A DNA stretch of 64,000 nucleotides from an uncultured Eubacteriales bacterium (lineage in GTDB: Bacteria > Bacillota > Clostridia > Lachnospirales > Lachnospiraceae), in NCBI GenBank assembly GCA_900315665.1, contig OMZX01000002.1:120959-184958 (forward strand), in the 5' to 3' direction. The position numbers were made by a program, and so were the translations under genes. Within the stretch, counting starts at the first letter, position 1; the number at the start of each line of letters is the position of its first letter. This document shows positions 4,317-35,239 of the stretch, one piece after another. The notes beneath the pieces are model-generated. The model had not been told where the DNA came from. It saw nothing but the letters and a program-made list of their open reading frames with translations, and did no database searches.

Positions 4317-6392
4317 TTATATACCTGGTTCTGGAGAAAGCTGTGCCCCCGGCTCGTTTGCGTTTGAGGTTTCCGGCGCCTTTGTCTCGCCGCCAGCCGG
4401 CCCTTCAATAGTAGTCTTAGTTTCTTCCTTCGTCTCCGCTTTTGTTGAATCTGCCGCTTCCGTCGACTTTTCAGCTCCCTTTGTTTCCACTGTCGTTTCA
4501 ACGAGACCTGGTTCCTCTGGTTTACCCTCGGCTGTGGATGACTCAGTTTCACTGCCGCTCTCGCCAGATTCCGAGGTTTCTTCCGTAGATGCTGACTCTG
4601 TCATGCTTTCTGCATATTTCTTCGGTGTGTGACCCTTGTATTTCGTATAATGATCCTTTTCCTTCGTCACAACGCCATTCGTCGTGATAACCTTATAAGC
4701 CTGCCATTCGCTGCCGGCAGAACCATTGGACTCTGTGCCTTCCTCAGGTGTAATAATAACCGGATCCGGAACAGGAAGATCCTTCACCTTTTCAGAAGTA
4801 AGCTCCCAGGTCACACCCTCCGGCAATACACGCACACCGTAAATGGATACACTGCAGATATTGTCTTTATAATAAGCACGGATACCGATCGCATGTGATG
4901 AATCATTGACAAACTTATAATCCGGTCCCGGCCATGAAACCGTCGCATCCTGACCCGGCGTAACATAGTTCGGTGCAAAGGTATGTGAACGGCGATACGT
5001 CGTCGTTAGTCCGGAACGGAACACAGCGTTAAAAAGCGTGGTGGATACCTGGCATACGCCTCCACCTACCTCCTGAACTACCTCGCCGGCATTATAGGCA
5101 GGAGCAGCCCCATAACCTTTTGCCTCCGTACGTTGTCCTACGGTTCCATTAAACGAAAATTCCTCGCCGGGCTGCAGGATTGTTCCATTAATAGCAGCAG
5201 CAGCCAGCTTTACATTACCATTACGAATAGCATTGTTCGTCGTTTTTGTCTGATAGGAACCAATCGTTGTATAATTTTCCTTCTGTGATGAAGCTTCTAC
5301 ACTCGAGCCTTCGCAATCGATGCTCTCTGTGTATTTTCCAGCCTTGATGGCCGAAAGCACCTTCTCTGCAGTTGCTTCCGCATTCACGCTATACCCATTC
5401 ACTGAGCCGCCAAATGTAAATTCACCAGTCTGTGCATCATAAGCATTTATGTCACCATTCTTCGGTGCCATAGCCCAGACGGTGGCAAGCTGGTTCATAT
5501 AATCATTAATGATGTCTGTAAAATCAGGAAGCGTCAAAGCATAATCCGCATGTGCCTGTGTGCCCTCCGGTATCGAAGATCTGCTCTCTGTGCCGCTCGT
5601 GTCAGCATTGGACACATTTGAAGAAGCAACATCTGTAACAGCTTCTATCGTCCCCTTTTCAGCATAGTCCAGGAAAATCTGTTCGATAAAGCTATCAAGA
5701 TTTTTCGCAATCAGATCCGGAATCAAAAAGCTAGCCTTGTCTGGTCTGATTGAAATATCTGCATACTTGCTTGCAACCTTTTGTACCTGCTCAGTGCCTT
5801 CATTATCCACCGAATCAGATGCATCCGCCATGGTGGTCTCCGCTTCTGTCAGCTCCGGCATCTTGAAGCTGTCAAGTGAAGGATTTGTATTATTCACCAC
5901 AAGCTTCCACTGGTAGGTTGCTTCAAGAGCCTGCTTCGCCTGCTCGCGATTCATACCATTCAGATTGACGAGACCGCTATCCGGCGAAAAGCTCGAAACA
6001 TCGACATAAACATTGCCCTTTATAGTATCAGGATCAAATGCCTCCGTCGCGACTTCAGTGGCCTTTTCGGTCATCTCTGTCTCCGTAGGCTTTTTGAACT
6101 TTCCGGAAACTGCTAAACCTATCGCTGCAATAAGGCAGATGGCTAAAACGCCACCCAATGGTAAAATCCAGTTCGTTTGATCGTTATGATGGTTACTGTT
6201 TCTTCCGGAACGACTGCGACTGTTTCTCGTATAATTTTCTTCATACCCGGATCTTCTTCCGGTGCTATATTGCCCATTTCGTCCATTTTCACGAGACGAA
6301 GCTCCCTGGGAACGGGATCTCGACTGTCCTCTCGAGCGGGATCTTGATTGTCCTCTGCTATATTCAAATGAATCGTCGTATCTTTGTGCCAT
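4317..6392 (-). CDS. VanW-family cell-surface protein with RS-rich cytoplasmic tail
   Basis: 691 aa. Residues 1-72 are Arg/Ser/Asn-rich with an imperfect internal duplication (SRGQSRSRS twice). One membrane segment follows at about 75-96, then a long extracellular part. Residues ~110-380 resemble the paired YoaR-type putative peptidoglycan-binding domains. Residues ~405-515 are a VanW domain (EFSFNGTVGQRTEAKGYG, GGGVCQVSTTLFNA, RRSHTF). The last ~100 residues are a Glu/Thr/Ser-rich tail. VanW proteins of this layout are common in clostridia, with no settled biochemical role; they are thought to act at the cell wall, and the name does not imply vancomycin resistance here. An AAAGGAAG site precedes the ATG. 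It is transcribed divergently from uvrC. Confidence 0.85.
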   Translation of the reverse strand: MAQRYDDSFEYSRGQSRSRSRGQSRSRSQGASSRENGRNGQYSTGRRSGYEENYTRNSRSRSGRNSNHHNDQTNWILPLGGVLAICLIAAIGLAVSGKFKKPTETEMTEKATEVATEAFDPDTIKGNVYVDVSSFSPDSGLVNLNGMNREQAKQALEATYQWKLVVNNTNPSLDSFKMPELTEAETTMADASDSVDNEGTEQVQKVASKYADISIRPDKASFLIPDLIAKNLDSFIEQIFLDYAEKGTIEAVTDVASSNVSNADTSGTESRSSIPEGTQAHADYALTLPDFTDIINDYMNQLATVWAMAPKNGDINAYDAQTGEFTFGGSVNGYSVNAEATAEKVLSAIKAGKYTESIDCEGSSVEASSQKENYTTIGSYQTKTTNNAIRNGNVKLAAAAINGTILQPGEEFSFNGTVGQRTEAKGYGAAPAYNAGEVVQEVGGGVCQVSTTLFNAVFRSGLTTTYRRSHTFAPNYVTPGQDATVSWPGPDYKFVNDSSHAIGIRAYYKDNICSVSIYGVRVLPEGVTWELTSEKVKDLPVPDPVIITPEEGTESNGSAGSEWQAYKVITTNGVVTKEKDHYTKYKGHTPKKYAESMTESASTEETSESGESGSETESSTAEGKPEEPGLVETTVETKGAEKSTEAADSTKAETKEETKTTIEGPAGGETKAPETSNANEPGAQLSPEPGI

Positions 6393-6504
6393 TTTTCTTC
6401 CTTTATTTCTATCTAAAGACCGCGACTCTTATCTTAACAGTTTCATATCAGTTTGTATATCGACAAATTTATAAATTTACGGTCAAAAAATGTTAAAGGA
6501 AATG

Positions 6505-6510
6505 TATAAT
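6505..6510 (+). promoter_or_regulatory. Likely -10 box of uvrC
   Basis: A perfect TATAAT lies here with no convincing -35 box. Transcription would begin near 6517, leaving only ~7 bases before the first in-frame ATG (6524) but ~37 before the ATG at 6554. This favours the later start. Confidence 0.45.
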
Positions 6511-6553
6511 ATATTCCTATGATATGGAAAATTGGATGGAGGAGATATCACGC

Positions 6554-8464
6554 ATGTCCGAATTTATCATTGAAGAAGAACTGAAAAAACTGCCGGATAT
6601 GCCGGGCGTCTATCTGATGCATGGCCCACAGGATGAAGTGATCTATGTCGGGAAGGCAAAAATTCTAAAAAACCGTGTGAAACAATATTTTCAGAAATCC
6701 TATAAGAAATCTGTCAAAATACAGCAGATGGTCTCCCTCGTAAAGCGTTTTGAATATATTGTTGTTGACTCCGAGCTGGAAGCTCTGATGTTGGAAAACA
6801 ATCTCATCAAAGAATACCAGCCCCGCTATAATACACTTCTAAAGGACGATAAAACCTACCCGTATATCAAGGTTACCAGTGAAGCCTTTCCTCGTATTCT
6901 GAAAGTCCGGAAGCGTCTCACTGACAGAGCAAAATATTTTGGTCCATATGCTTCAAATGAACAGGTCAATGAAGTCATCGAACTCATCCGAAAAACCTTT
7001 CACATCCGCAATTGCAGCCGATCCTTTACGGAGGATCATCTTTTGCCGAACAAATGTGTGTATTATGACATGCATCAGTGTGATGGTCCCTGCATCGGCA
7101 AGCAGACGCGGGCTGAATACCAGCTTCGTATCGACCAGGCAGTCGATTTCCTAAATGGAAAATATGAGGATATCATAAAAGAGTTGACGCGTAAAATGAA
7201 CCGTGCTTCCGATAATCTTGATTACGAAACCGCCATCGAAATGCGCGATCTGATTCGTTCGATTGAAGCGGTACAGAACCGCCAGAAAATCATTGCCTAT
7301 GATTCTGAGGACCGCGACATTATCGGCATGCGTCGTGATTGGTCTGACTGTATCGTACAGCTTTTCTATGTACGGGATGGCAAGATCATCGGACGCGATC
7401 ATCAGTTTATCAGTATCGATCGGGAAGAAAGCGACGCCGATATCCTGAGTGAATTTATCCGTCAGTACTACAATGGTTCACCTTTTGTGCCTAAAGAGCT
7501 TTTCATTCAGACAGAACTTCCGGATAAAGATATCCTCGAGCAGTGGCTTTCACAGGAAAAAGGAAAAAAAGTACATATTCTGACGCCACAGATTGGAAAG
7601 AAAGAAAAGCTGGTGGAGCTTGCTGTCACAAATGCCGGCATCCTGATGAACCGGTATAAACAACAATATCGTGAAATGGATCAGAAAGCCGCAAAGGGAC
7701 TTTCCGAGCTTCAGGATATCATCGGATTACCCTCTCTTCCGCATCGTATCGAGTCCTATGACATTTCAAACACCTCGGGTGTCCTGAATGTCGGCTCCAT
7801 GATCGTCTATGAAAACGGAAAACCGAAAAATTCAGACTATCGGAAATTCCGAATACAATCCGTCCAGGGCTCTGATGATTACGCGTCCATGCACGAAATG
7901 CTTACACGACGCTTTGAGCATGGACTTCGTGAGATGGAGGAAAATGCTTTAAATGGCAAGGATAACTCACTAGGTTCCTTCTCTAATCTTCCGGACTTAG
8001 TCCTAATGGATGGCGGTAAAGGACAGGTCCATATCTGCGAAGATGTGCTTATAGACCTTGGAATCAATTCGGTCATTGTCGCCGGTATGGTGAAGGATGA
8101 CCATCATCGTACCCGTGCTCTCCTCTATCATGATGAAGAACTCCCGATTGAAGAAGATTCCGAAGCCTTCAAGCTTCTCACACGCATCCAGGACGAGGTG
8201 CACCGTTTCGCCATCGAATATCATCGTTCGCTGCGCTCGCAAAACCAGATTCATTCCCTTCTCGACGATATCAAAGGCATCGGTACCGTCCGAAAGAAAA
8301 ATCTCATGAAACAATTCGGCGATATCGACCACATCCGCCAAGCCACCCTTTCGGAGCTTCAGCAATGCCCGTCGATGGACGATTATTCCGCCCGTTCGGT
8401 CTATGACTTCTTCCACAACAATCCTGATACTGCCGTCGGGGCATTTACGGCTAACCGGACGTGA
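6554..8464 (+). CDS. uvrC: UvrABC excinuclease subunit C
   Basis: Nuclease subunit of nucleotide excision repair, incising on both sides of the lesion bound by UvrB. Visible are the GIY-YIG domain (GVYLM...VIYVGKAKILKNRV, about residues 14-95), the UVR motif near 200-240, the RNase H-like endonuclease domain (ESYDISNTSG, VLMDGGKGQ) and C-terminal helix-hairpin-helix motifs (LLDDIKGIGTVRKKNL). The frame is open from an earlier ATG at 6524, but GGATGGAGGAG at 6534-6544 sits nine bases before the ATG at 6554, giving 636 aa, close to the usual length. The stop codon lies inside the left arm of the large hairpin element that follows. Confidence 0.96.
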   Translation: MSEFIIEEELKKLPDMPGVYLMHGPQDEVIYVGKAKILKNRVKQYFQKSYKKSVKIQQMVSLVKRFEYIVVDSELEALMLENNLIKEYQPRYNTLLKDDKTYPYIKVTSEAFPRILKVRKRLTDRAKYFGPYASNEQVNEVIELIRKTFHIRNCSRSFTEDHLLPNKCVYYDMHQCDGPCIGKQTRAEYQLRIDQAVDFLNGKYEDIIKELTRKMNRASDNLDYETAIEMRDLIRSIEAVQNRQKIIAYDSEDRDIIGMRRDWSDCIVQLFYVRDGKIIGRDHQFISIDREESDADILSEFIRQYYNGSPFVPKELFIQTELPDKDILEQWLSQEKGKKVHILTPQIGKKEKLVELAVTNAGILMNRYKQQYREMDQKAAKGLSELQDIIGLPSLPHRIESYDISNTSGVLNVGSMIVYENGKPKNSDYRKFRIQSVQGSDDYASMHEMLTRRFEHGLREMEENALNGKDNSLGSFSNLPDLVLMDGGKGQVHICEDVLIDLGINSVIVAGMVKDDHHRTRALLYHDEELPIEEDSEAFKLLTRIQDEVHRFAIEYHRSLRSQNQIHSLLDDIKGIGTVRKKNLMKQFGDIDHIRQATLSELQQCPSMDDYSARSVYDFFHNNPDTAVGAFTANRT

Positions 8465-8712
8465 AACTGACTGCGGGAGCAGGACAGGGGCCGTCTCCGC
8501 ACTGCTCGAAAGTCTTAGCGCTATCCAGCCATCATGAACTGGGTCGGCCCAATTCCGGAGAATTCTTGAAAGAATTCTCCTACAATGGGCCTAAAAAATC
8601 GGGGTCAAGGAAAACCCCGATTTTTTACCCTGTTCATGCTGGCTGGCTAGCTGAGACTTTCGGCTTTATGTTTGTGCGACGGCCCCTGTCCTGCTCCCGC
8701 AGTCAGTTTCAC
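8461..8712 (+). repeat. Large palindromic element, copy 1 (conserved multi-helix core)
   Basis: A perfect 35-bp inverted repeat (8461-8495 with 8678-8712) encloses a structured core. The core holds AGTCTTAGCGCTATCCAG at 8511-8528, pairing loosely with CTAGCTGAGACTT at 8647-8659. It also has a hairpin GGAGAATTCTT/AAGAATTCTCC at 8557-8580 set inside GGCCCAATT/AATGGGCC, and a hairpin AAAATCGGGGT/ACCCCGATTTT at 8592-8627. The same core recurs on the other strand at 34832-35239 with different arms. It fills the space between convergent uvrC and leuS, overlaps the uvrC stop codon, and probably also ends transcription of both. No coding potential was recognised. Confidence 0.9.
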
Positions 8713-8727
8713 TGCTTTTTAATTTCT

Positions 8728-11145
8728 TTATCTTACGACGAAGTTCAAAATCTTCCCCGGAACGTAAATTACCTTCACGATATTCTTACCATCGAGTGCC
8801 TTTGCGACGGAAGCGTTTTCCTTTGCGGTTGCGACAGCTTCCTCCTGCTGAGCGTCGCGGGCAATGTCAACATTGCCCTTGACCTTGCCATTGACCTGAA
8901 CACCGATGTTGAGAACGGCATCCTTTGTTTTCTCTTCAGAATAGTCCGGCCAGCTGGAAAGTGTCAGAAGGCCTTCACCACCGATTTCGCTCCAGATTTC
9001 CTCGGTAAGATGCGGTGCAAAAGGATGCAGGAGCTTAATGAATACGACGAGATCATCTCGTGTAATCGTGCCGGCATCCTTGAAATCATTGATGAGCGTC
9101 ATCAGTGCAGCAATTGCTGTGTTAAACTTCATCTTTTCGATATCCTCGGATACCTTCTTGATGGTCTTATGCACCTTTGATTCCAGCTTCGGATCTTCCT
9201 TTTCACGAGTCGCAACGTCTGTCAAAGCGGCTACACGGTCAAGGAAACGCTTCACGCCACGAACCGATTCATCACTCCATGGCGCTGATGCAGTATAGTC
9301 ACTCATAAAGAGGACATAGGTACGAAGGGTATCCGCGCCATACTCATCGACGATATTCAGCGGATCAATGACATTACCCTTCGACTTTGACATCTTCTCA
9401 CCATCCGGTCCGAGAATAAGTCCCTGATAGGATCTCTTCCTGTACGGTTCATCGCAAGGTACCTCTCCGATATCATAGAGGAACCGATGCCAGAAGCGGG
9501 AATACAGAAGGTGTCTCGTGACATGCTCCATGCCGCCATTGTAATGATCTACCGGCATCCAGTACTTCAACTTCTCTTTATCTGCGAAGGCCTTGTCATT
9601 GTGCGGATCGCAGAAGCGAAGGAAATACCAGGAGGAACCAGCCCACTGCGGCATAGTATCTGTCTCTCTCTTTGCCGGACCGCCGCACTTCGGACAGGTA
9701 CAATTTACAAAAGAATCAATCCTTGCAAGAGGGCTCTTACCATCCTGTCCCGGCTCGAAGTTCTCTACATCCGGAAGTGTCAGCGGAAGCTCATCCTCTG
9801 GAACAGCTACCGTACCACAGTTCGGGCAATGAATCAGTGGAATTGGCTCACCCCAATAGCGCTGACGGTTAAAGGCCCAGTCCTTCATCTTATACTGCAC
9901 GCCCTTATGCCCGATGCCCTTCTCTTCAAGATACGGCAGCATCTTCTTGATCGAGTCTTTCTTGTTTGTAAAGCCGTCAAGGAAGCCGGAGTTCACCATT
10001 TCACCGTCTCCGGTGTATGCTTCCTTTGAAATATCTCCGCCCTTGATGACCTCGATGATCGGAACGCCGAATTTCTTTGCAAAATCATAGTCGCGCTGAT
10101 CATGCGCTGGCACTGCCATAATTGCACCAGTACCATAACCCATCATGACATAATCCGCGATAAAGATCGGAATATTTTTACCTGTAATCGGATTGATTGC
10201 GCTCAGTCCTTCAATCTTCACACCGGTCTTATCTTTTACAAGCTGTGTTCTCTCAAACTCCGTCTTCTTTGCGCATTCTGCGCGATAATCTTCTACCGCG
10301 TTCCAGTTAGTAATCTGTGCTTTATATTTATCAAGAACCGGATGCTCCGGTGCTACAACCATAAATGTAACACCGTACAGCGTATCACAACGAGTCGTAT
10401 AAATCTCAAGCTTTTCATCCATCGGTTTTTCGTTTTGATCAGAAAGCTGGAAGTTCACGAAGGCACCGGTAGATCTTCCAATCCAGGCCCTCTGCTGCTG
10501 CTTGATTGATTCCGGATAATCCACTTCATCAAGTCCTTCGAGCAGCTTATCGGCATACTGTGTAATCCGCAGATACCATACATCCTTCGGGAGCTGGATG
10601 ACATCATTATGACAGATATCGCATTTACCGCCCTGCGAATCCTCATTAGAAAGGACGACCTTACAATGAGGGCAATAATTTACAAGTGTTTTTGCGCGAA
10701 ATACTAGTCCATGCTCAAAAAGCTTCAAAAAGATCCATTGCGTCCATTTATAATAATCCGCATGGCTGGTTGCGATCTCACGGCTCCAGTCAAAGGAAAA
10801 TCCGACTCTCCTCATCTGATCCTTGAAATGCTCGATATTTTTTTCTGTGATCACATGCGGATGTGTATTTGTCTTGATGGCGTAGTTTTCTGCCGGAAGC
10901 CCGAAGGAATCAAATCCCATCGGGAAAAGAACATTGTAGCCCTGCATCCTTCTCTTTCTGGCAAGAACCTCGACACTAGAATAAGCCTTGATATGTCCGA
11001 CATGCATGCCAGCACCTGATGGATATGGAAATTCTACCAGACCATACCACTTCGGCTTTTTCGCAAAGTCAACCGCTTCAAACGCATGGGCTTCCTCCCA
11101 CTTTGCCTGCCACTTCGGCTCAATCTTCTTAAAATCATATTTCAT
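8728..11145 (-). CDS. leuS: Leucyl-tRNA synthetase
   Basis: Class I aminoacyl-tRNA synthetase charging tRNA-Leu, 805 aa from the ATG at 11145. Signature motifs: PYPSGAGMHVGH (HIGH box, near residue 45), a zinc site CPHC...CDIC near 155-175, the CP1 editing domain in the middle, and GEKMSKSKGNV (KMSKS box, near 585) before the anticodon-binding and C-terminal domains. The frame also opens with a GTG three codons earlier, but AGGTGA five bases before the ATG supports 11145. The leader is only ~60 bases, too short for a T-box riboswitch. Confidence 0.97.
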   Translation of the reverse strand: MKYDFKKIEPKWQAKWEEAHAFEAVDFAKKPKWYGLVEFPYPSGAGMHVGHIKAYSSVEVLARKRRMQGYNVLFPMGFDSFGLPAENYAIKTNTHPHVITEKNIEHFKDQMRRVGFSFDWSREIATSHADYYKWTQWIFLKLFEHGLVFRAKTLVNYCPHCKVVLSNEDSQGGKCDICHNDVIQLPKDVWYLRITQYADKLLEGLDEVDYPESIKQQQRAWIGRSTGAFVNFQLSDQNEKPMDEKLEIYTTRCDTLYGVTFMVVAPEHPVLDKYKAQITNWNAVEDYRAECAKKTEFERTQLVKDKTGVKIEGLSAINPITGKNIPIFIADYVMMGYGTGAIMAVPAHDQRDYDFAKKFGVPIIEVIKGGDISKEAYTGDGEMVNSGFLDGFTNKKDSIKKMLPYLEEKGIGHKGVQYKMKDWAFNRQRYWGEPIPLIHCPNCGTVAVPEDELPLTLPDVENFEPGQDGKSPLARIDSFVNCTCPKCGGPAKRETDTMPQWAGSSWYFLRFCDPHNDKAFADKEKLKYWMPVDHYNGGMEHVTRHLLYSRFWHRFLYDIGEVPCDEPYRKRSYQGLILGPDGEKMSKSKGNVIDPLNIVDEYGADTLRTYVLFMSDYTASAPWSDESVRGVKRFLDRVAALTDVATREKEDPKLESKVHKTIKKVSEDIEKMKFNTAIAALMTLINDFKDAGTITRDDLVVFIKLLHPFAPHLTEEIWSEIGGEGLLTLSSWPDYSEEKTKDAVLNIGVQVNGKVKGNVDIARDAQQEEAVATAKENASVAKALDGKNIVKVIYVPGKILNFVVR

Positions 11146-11203
11146 TTCAGTCACCTGTCATTCTCAGCATCTGCTGAATGTCTAATAAAAAACAGCAAAC
11201 ACG

Positions 11204-24005: not shown

Positions 24006-24219
24006 GTGCAATTCCCTACGAAACGTAAATGGAACACCGGAGCCGGCAGGGGCGATTTCAGCGTACTGCCGCGTCCCGGCGCTTAGCGACCCACGACACG
24101 TTTTACCGTCGTGGGAGCTTAGCGTCCGTTGGTCAACGCGGCCTGTAGGCGAGAGCCGGGCGATGGAATCGCCCCTGCCGGCTCCGGTGTTCCTCCATGA
24201 CCTCCACTGGGAATTGCAC
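24006..24219. repeat. Large palindromic element of a second type
   Basis: A 214-base structured block between tRNA-Leu and upp. The outer inverted repeat GTGCAATTCCC / GGGAATTGCAC (24006-24016, 24209-24219) encloses a perfect 27-bp repeat (24031-24057 with 24167-24193). Inside lie GCCGCGT/ACGCGGC and a hairpin CCCACGAC/GTCGTGGG, flanked by two copies of GCTTAGCG. It shares only the CTTAGCG motif with the elements at 8.5 and 34.9 kb. It would be read through by upp transcription and may act as its terminator. No coding potential was recognised. Confidence 0.85.
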
Positions 24220-28990: not shown

Positions 28991-29073
28991 GCCGAAAAAG
29001 AAATTGACGCTGAAATGATCCGGCCGATTGCATTTACATGCCATCGGCCGGATCCTTTTAGCGTCAATTTTTT
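28991..29073 (-). terminator. Terminator of asd
   Basis: A long imperfect stem: ATTGACGCT and GGATCCGGCCGAT pair with ATCGGCCGGATC and AGCGTCAAT. On the minus strand TTTCTTTTT follows. It begins right after the asd stop codon. Confidence 0.9.
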
Positions 29074-34831: not shown

Positions 34832-35239
34832 GGCCGTCGTTCAAAGTTGTAAAAAGCAGGGACTGCCGTGTGACACTGGACTACATGTCCGAACCGCTGA
34901 GGGGCGCTCTCAGAAACCATTCTGACGCAAGTCTCAGCTAGACAGCCATTTCGAACAGGGTAGAAAATCCGGGTTACAACCCCGGATTTTCTAGGCCCAT
35001 TGAAGGAAAAATCCCTTCAAGGTTATCCCGGAGTACCGCGCTTGCGCGGGGAGGCTTGCGTTCAAAGACATCGCTTGCGATGTCTTCTGATTTTTCCTGA
35101 ATTGGGCCGGCCCAGTTCGAAATGACTGGATAGCGCTAAGACTTGGCGTCCCTGGCTTCTGAGAGCGCCCCTCAGCGGTTCGGACATGTAGTCCAGCGTC
35201 ACACGGCAATCCCTGCATCAAAATCTACAAGCGACGGCC
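34832..35239 (-). repeat. Large palindromic element, copy 2 (conserved multi-helix core)
   Basis: A 408-base block filling the 506-base gap between ptsI and parE. The base pair arm is GGCCGTCG/CGACGGCC. Next comes a 60-bp inverted repeat (34856-34915 with 35157-35216) with two mismatches, both G-U pairs if the minus strand is RNA. The inner core, read on the minus strand, repeats that of the 8461-8712 element: AGTCTTAGCGCTATCCAG (18/18, 35127-35144), GAACTGGG.CGGCCCAATTC (19/20, 35099-35118), AATGGGCCTA.AAAATC (16/17, 34985-35001) and CTAGCTGAGACTT (13/13, 34929-34941). Extra hairpins AAGACATCG/CGATGTCTT and CCGCGC/GCGCGG enlarge one branch. It starts 17 bases after the ptsI stop. Confidence 0.92.

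Follow-up and report, generated by a model that had tools for sequence, protein, structure and literature searches.

Giant hairpins with a conserved three-way-junction core and copy-specific self-complementary arms: a dispersed repeat family in a Lachnospiraceae genome and its relatives

Two gene-free blocks in the window (the whole 64,000-nucleotide stretch analysed here) raise the question of what kind of element keeps the sequence of its core but only the pairing of its arms. We found both blocks where the preliminary description had placed them (8461–8712, and 34832–35239 on the opposite strand). Its four core segments are, by eye, common to the two copies: AGTCTTAGCGCTATCCAG (18/18 identical), GAACTGGGYCGGCCCAATTC (19/20), CAATGGGCCTARAAAAT (16/17) and CTAGCTGAGACTT (13/13). 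The closing arm is indeed perfect in copy 1 and nearly perfect in copy 2 (Table 1), and, by eye, the outer-arm sequences show no relation between one copy and the other. The extent given for copy 1 needed one change, at its left boundary, because a conserved foot belongs to the element too; copy 2 spans 34856–35216 and is read on the minus strand. RNA folding gives –182.7 kcal/mol for copy 1 plus its flanks (z –17.8) and –281.9 kcal/mol for copy 2 (z –21.4); as DNA, the two strands of copy 1 give z –17.9 and –20.3.

Table 1. Parts of the two window copies, with the observation on which each assignment rests
Feature	Position	Strand	Basis
Copy 1 left foot, TTTACGGCTAACCGGAC	8444–8460	+	by eye, similar to the usual foot TTTTTGGCTATGCGGAC
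Copy 1 left arm, 35 nt, copy-specific	8461–8495	+	35/35 complementary to 8678–8712
Copy 1 internal-loop segment, left, arm to core, partly paired	8496–8510	+	fold
Copy 1 conserved three-way-junction core	8511–8659	+	part modelled as R1 and R3; alignment A1; R3 119.9 bits
Copy 1 core hairpin 1, GGCCCAATTC...ACAATGGGCC	8546–8591	+	fold; A1 helices 4 and 5 covary
Copy 1 core hairpin 2, TAAAAAATCGGGG...CCCCGATTTTTTA	8592–8627	+	fold; A1 helix 6 covaries
Copy 1 internal-loop segment, right, core to arm, partly paired	8660–8677	+	fold
Copy 1 right arm, 35 nt	8678–8712	+	complementary to left arm
Copy 1 right foot, TGCTTTTTAATTT	8713–8725	+	usual right foot, by eye: TGTTTTTT
Copy 2 left arm, 64 nt, without GGAC foot	35153–35216	–	61 Watson-Crick and 3 G.U pairs over 64
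Copy 2 core, about 66 nt extra in hairpin 1 (nested small hairpins)	34929–35143	–	R3 107.9 bits
Copy 2 right arm	34856–34919	–	

The window holds other palindromes as well. A different large hairpin at 24031–24193 has a nearly perfect arm of about 30 bp and inner loops with CTTAGC (z –12); its sequence is unlike the element, and a second copy is absent from the fetched DNA of the window genome. One long, nearly perfect hairpin at 29001–29070 (z –12.3) is followed by a T run and is perhaps a terminator.

The two copies belong to a large family. A blastn search of the window's own genome (G000) with copy 1 gave 43 matches, itself and pieces counted, which merge into 40 places. A covariance model, R1, built from 31 cores (alignment A1, which takes 31 of the 40 blastn places), returned 83 matches in the 2.45-Mb genome with E no higher than 0.01; many of these are the two strands of one place, and they reduce to 50 distinct places. 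Model R3 found one place beyond these 50, while R2, built from a poor alignment with 15 pairs, was left unused. The copies are scattered across numerous contigs, the 51.6-kb C62 carrying seven of the blastn places, and their surroundings, judged from ORFs, look like ordinary chromosomal genes. The preliminary description had proposed such a covariance search; since it returned many further copies whose stems covary, and Rfam yielded no family, the suspicion of a repeat family stands. At gathering score Rfam detected two tRNAs only in the window and nothing in 10 loci from 6 genomes; at E up to 0.5, four loci gave a single miRNA match, far under its threshold. As far as Rfam goes, then, no named family fits, as had been supposed. 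The literature that we searched, whose coverage leaves out many journals, does not describe such a family either, and it is apparently undescribed so far.

Read from the outside in, the general plan starts with a left foot, an arm and an internal loop; a conserved stem then leads to a three-way junction that bears two hairpins, after which the parts are mirrored and a right foot ends the unit. The core measures about 150 nt, the closing arms 25–111 nt, and the gene-free unit 250–400 nt. Nested within core hairpin 1, an insert that bears small hairpins of its own (CATCGCAAGCGATG, CCGCGCAAGCGCGG) was seen by eye in copy 2 and at four other loci (L021, L083, L084 and L087), and looks like a repeat within another repeat. 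Many copies carry short conserved feet, GGACG on the left and CTGTTTT on the right. Among 38 of the 40 blastn places (incomplete L036 and L028_5291 were left out), a left GGAC, direct or one base off, occurs in 17, versus a background of 0.6%; a right foot starting with TG, direct or after one base, occurs in 22, and both feet together in 16. Genome-wide, the left-foot pattern occurs 20 times versus 3 for the reversed control. Some loci have feet and a perfect hairpin without the core (for example, L012:10040–10125). A separate dispersed repeat, CACCGGGGACGGTTCTCTNTGTCA, lies at L081:623–731 and also in L024, L028, L029 and L083, with a long inverted pair in one place; we take it to resemble repeats near RAYT genes.

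In the same 38 copies, alignment of arm with arm covers 2215 positions, of which 2083 match; the remainder are 50 G.U, 44 A.C, 23 mismatches of other kinds and 15 gaps. The inner two fifths of the arms have a lower share of mismatches and gaps (36/898) than the outer three fifths (96/1317). Between copies the arms are mostly unalignable: when outer arms of 36 copies were compared (two became too short once trimmed), 21 of 630 pairs scored above the best shuffled pair, which shows a faint common ancestor. Searched against 223 kb of the window genome, the 38 arms matched arms of other copies only. A terminator-like GGGCTGTCGC hairpin in the outer arms of three copies had suggested that a host terminator was duplicated inward; this idea was dropped, as unsupported, since GGGCTGTCGC occurs in no other fetched locus (these loci being part of the genome; L044, L047 and L058 contain the same three copies fetched again), nor in the window. 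The contrast of a conserved core with free arms holds in the window copies but not everywhere. In G284, several copies are >90% identical over spans that include the arms, and in G187 two copies (L207 and L209) are identical at 319 of 326 positions of hairpin 1; therefore the arms are not rewritten at each move. Mismatches of the conserved internal loops also persist, so copying between arms is incomplete.

Hairpins of this architecture are present in nine further genomes of the bacterial family (G117, G078, G313, G187, G392, G284, G709, G146 and G161), with feet that by eye are GTACG/GGACG-like. Focused searches with R3 gave 25 matches in G117, 14 in G078, 1 in G313, 24 in G187, 18 in G392, 142 in G284 and 11 in G709, totals that may count two strands of one place; R1 gave 4 in G146, where a fifth copy was found in a fetched locus, and 1 in G161. 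Large draws were positive in 7/397 genomes of the family (R1) and 4/392 of the order (R3), while in the class draw (R3) 1/391 was positive, the window's own genome, and no other. Since scoring in these draws covered just 7 or 8 candidates for each genome, the positives are lower bounds. Within the genus, 15 of 16 genomes had no match, and the remaining one (G003) had one marginal 34-bit match that by eye is simply a hairpin with a different sequence. A pattern scan of genome contigs, which may omit the window genome's own records, returned 18 matches from assorted organisms; with R3 none of these 18 loci yields the element, and hence they are chance matches.

At copy 1 the element has become part of a gene. 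The ORF at 6524–8464 is uvrC, and its stop codon (8462–8464) lies within the left arm, so that the foot and arm supply the last codons and the stop; the uvrC end of relatives differs. The neighbours are leuS (8728–11154) and a 691-aa ORF (4317–6392). Matches to uvrC and leuS share a contig in 13 same-genus genomes, and there the direction of uvrC relative to leuS is the opposite of that in the window; in several congeners the next gene runs the same way too. From this opposite arrangement, uvrC is inverted in the window relative to both neighbours, with breakpoints at the element (leuS side) and in an AT-rich gap at 6393–6523, where no palindrome was found. Inversion through recombination of two copies seems less likely by reasoning: it would leave non-matching arms, and the arms match.

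The orientation of copies was compared with replication and with genes. In G117, a single contig, the primary hairpins are plus in 11 of 11 cases before the GC-skew switch and minus in 4 of 4 after it, under a primary/partner split that is partly post hoc and an origin placed from GC skew, which is positive in all 11 stretches sampled as far as 1.816 Mb and negative in the 9 sampled from 1.9 Mb onward. Fourteen of these 15 primaries come from the R3 matches listed (17 of 25) and one from R1 only; among the matches listed, three partner hairpins point the opposite way, as inverted pairs should. Seven of nine G117 copies examined sit between convergent genes, so gene direction is not an easy explanation. 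The hairpins follow the replichore in 4 of 4 listed cases in G078 (out of 14 matches), and in the window genome the local GC skew is positive in the element orientation at 29 of 40 places (P-value 0.006); the trend was not significant in G146 (3/4) or in G392 and G078 together (6/9). Orientation to flanking genes in the window genome is random (++ 14 and –– 14 of 40). As G117 orientation follows the replichore, the core-sense strand would correspond to the lagging-strand template.

On balance, we favour the reading that the copies are a non-autonomous mobile DNA element that transposes as a folded single strand. The lagging-strand template, i.e. the core-sense strand, would fold during replication, and an enzyme that processes single-stranded DNA, for which the best candidate may be an HUH/Y1 transposase acting in trans, would recognise the core, loops and foot. 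The unit would then be cut and pasted, or copied, as single-stranded DNA. Because the element would repeatedly take the hairpin form, a mutation in either arm could be copied into the other or repaired against it, by template switching or hairpin mismatch repair; the arms would drift or be replaced, and pairing would be restored. A pair of such hairpins makes up the full unit in some genera. We put forward more tentatively that the heritable unit is half a hairpin: the folded tip is recognised, and each time the lagging-strand template folds the arms are rewritten from their partner, with no selection on their sequence. If this were true, structure alone would be inherited over the arm stretch, and copies would gain private self-complementary arms.

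A partner enzyme was sought with PF01797 (Y1 transposase) in 14 genomes, seven with the element and seven without. The Y1 transposases of the seven positive genomes are of mixed types, none was found by this search in G161, and relatives without the element carry Y1 genes as well. RAYT-type genes, typed by length and score, are present in G000, G117 and G284 and were not seen in G146, G078, G392 and G161. Neither a RAYT nor an IS200 gene is thus a consistent partner among the 14 genomes. R3 detected no element around four fetched RAYT genes, and a Y1 transposase gene is not present inside the units read. On contig C26 of the window genome, about 200 bp separate an IS200-type transposase gene (L085:166–852) and a degenerate copy without core hairpin 2, a closeness that is possibly due to chance.

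An ordinary double-stranded MITE, with terminal inverted repeats and a DDE transposase, would make the hairpins passengers whose arms are matched by gene conversion or template switching. Several units outside the window genome look the part. Two G187 units of about 650–690 bp end in TGGAAATTTAGT/ACTAAATTTCCA, a terminal inverted repeat, and share about 73% identity in their second hairpin, whose arms are different yet self-complementary; three G117 units end, by eye, roughly in TGGGGATTTTTGTTGG and its inverse; and in G284 and G117 many hairpins form inverted pairs a few hundred bases apart. In other genera, therefore, the full unit may be MITE-like. However, the copies in the window genome are single hairpins with no common terminal repeat past the short feet, no target-site duplication was seen by eye in the single recent pair of copies checked (G187), and an orientation set by replichore would be unexpected of a MITE. 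We consider this alternative unlikely. G187 also has a second type of giant hairpin with variable self-complementary arms and a motif near AGGTAAGC...GGA (L207:1880–2105, L209:1837–2061, L204:1807–1926), which adjoins the three-way-junction hairpin.

Whether pairing is kept as DNA or as RNA can be judged from the mismatches. In an alignment of 41 copies from seven genomes (A4), fitted to the model and made of matches at E up to 1e–10 among 36 chosen loci, all 53 of 53 core pairs have two-sided changes, and covariation is 0.884, versus 0.232 when shuffled and at most 0.194 when slid. In the window genome alone (31 copies), 29 of 53 pairs have two-sided changes, with 143 two-sided versus 13 one-sided cells. 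RNA under selection tolerates G.U but not A.C on its own strand. The cores of the window genome contain 1595 Watson-Crick, 14 G.U, 10 A.C and 20 other combinations (15 of these C.T), and the arms of 32 chosen copies from six other genomes contain 68 G.U versus 57 A.C; single-genome arm counts diverge (44 versus 21 in G117, 5 versus 17 in G284). Since G.U is no commoner than A.C, pairing seems to be maintained at the DNA level rather than by selection on one RNA. As core divergence grows from under 4% to over 40%, one-sided differences stay flat at 1.7–3.3 per two-copy comparison, whereas two-sided differences climb from 0.6 to about 20. The flat count looks like a pool of young mismatches that are removed by copying or repair. 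In the accessible text of PMC8794818, template switching is described as making and mending perfect stems in a single copying event.

These counts bear on a second alternative, an amplified functional structured RNA (a 3'-UTR element, giant terminator or small RNA) with arms selected for RNA pairing. The very stable three-way-junction fold, the conserved internal loops, the often T-rich, terminator-like right foot, the convergent-gene setting of seven of the nine G117 copies examined and the excess of G.U over A.C in G117 arms would all suit it. Against it stand the near-equality of G.U and A.C in the arms and core of the window genome and in the six other genomes pooled, the rarity of one-sided changes, the lack of any match in the Rfam searches, and an orientation that in the window genome is random to genes and in G117 goes by replichore. 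We judge it improbable. The preliminary description had left a MITE-like element, a REP-type unit and a 3'-UTR RNA side by side: REP-like mobile DNA is the best supported of these, membership in REP proper does not hold, and the 3'-UTR RNA is weakened by the parity of G.U and A.C, by random gene orientation (G000) and by replichore orientation (G117).

It is also conceivable, but very unlikely, that the palindromes are immobile, i.e. old repeats kept perfect by template switching alone and multiplied by segmental recombination. The published ability of that process to make and mend perfect stems (PMC8794818, in the part accessible) would be in keeping with this, as would the two G187 loci, L207 and L209, that have only the hairpin 1 block in common (about 98%); 50 dispersed places in one species with none clear in 16 congeners, and a patchy presence across other genera, would not. 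That the arms were taken up from foreign DNA, as hairpin 'spacers' directed at phages or plasmids, would agree with their variation between copies but is hardly credible given the faint motif common to outer arms (21/630 pairs over the shuffled maximum) and, more weakly, the absence of a phage match for the two window arms and of one exact arm 22-mer from viral contigs. A distant blastn search of phages and plasmids and a search of viral contigs with three exact patterns gave no match.

Covariation in RNA is commonly read as strong evidence of a functional RNA. A family within one genome that has textbook covariation, apparently arising at the DNA level, therefore cautions against naive ncRNA calls. 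Its dozens of replicate arms are available for measuring hairpin-driven correction. The family may also represent a sizeable overlooked class of elements mobile as single-stranded DNA in this bacterial family (G284 alone has 142 model matches, with strands perhaps double-counted).

Other systems are known in which folded strands matter. Integron attC also recombines as a folded strand, with R and L core sites cut by the integron integrase. Hairpins maintained by template switching, like the element, have two-sided substitutions without G.U intermediates, but in the accessible part of the source they are described in RNA genes, whereas the element is a dispersed repeat family (PMC8794818). IS200/IS605 elements have subterminal hairpins, a guide at the 5' foot and a habit of using the lagging-strand template (PMC6006769, in part). 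The element resembles them in foot, hairpin and strand orientation (15/15 seen in G117, 4/4 listed in G078, 29/40 in G000); unlike them, the units examined are without a transposase gene, and the hairpins are far above 20–25 nt.

The CGTC-tagged REPs are tetranucleotide-tagged palindromes without a dedicated transposase, reported, in the portion of the source consulted, from Proteobacteria, Chlorobi, Bacteroidetes, Spirochaetes and Thermotogae (PMC3733652). The GACG of the element's left foot reads CGTC on the opposite strand; CGTC-tagged REPs differ, however, in having stems of 8–9 bp, loops of 4–5 and conserved sequence (PMC3733652, same portion). With REP/REPIN sequences in general the element shares an intergenic position, many copies, palindromy, a tetranucleotide foot 5' of the hairpin and frequent dimers. 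REP hairpins are described, in the parts of these papers accessible, as processed by TnpA-REP as single-stranded DNA (PMC6006769, PMC3733652, PMC8266576, PMC3116915). Unlike REPs, which measure about 20–65 nt, conserve their stem sequence and have a GTAG or GTGG foot, the element measures 250–400 nt, has a three-way-junction core, arms without common sequence and a GGACG/GTACG foot, and lacks a consistent RAYT across the positive genomes searched. Overall, although tag and size place it outside REP, the element is best read as a hairpin that works in the manner of REP or IS200-type ones but is far larger and has no GTAG tag.
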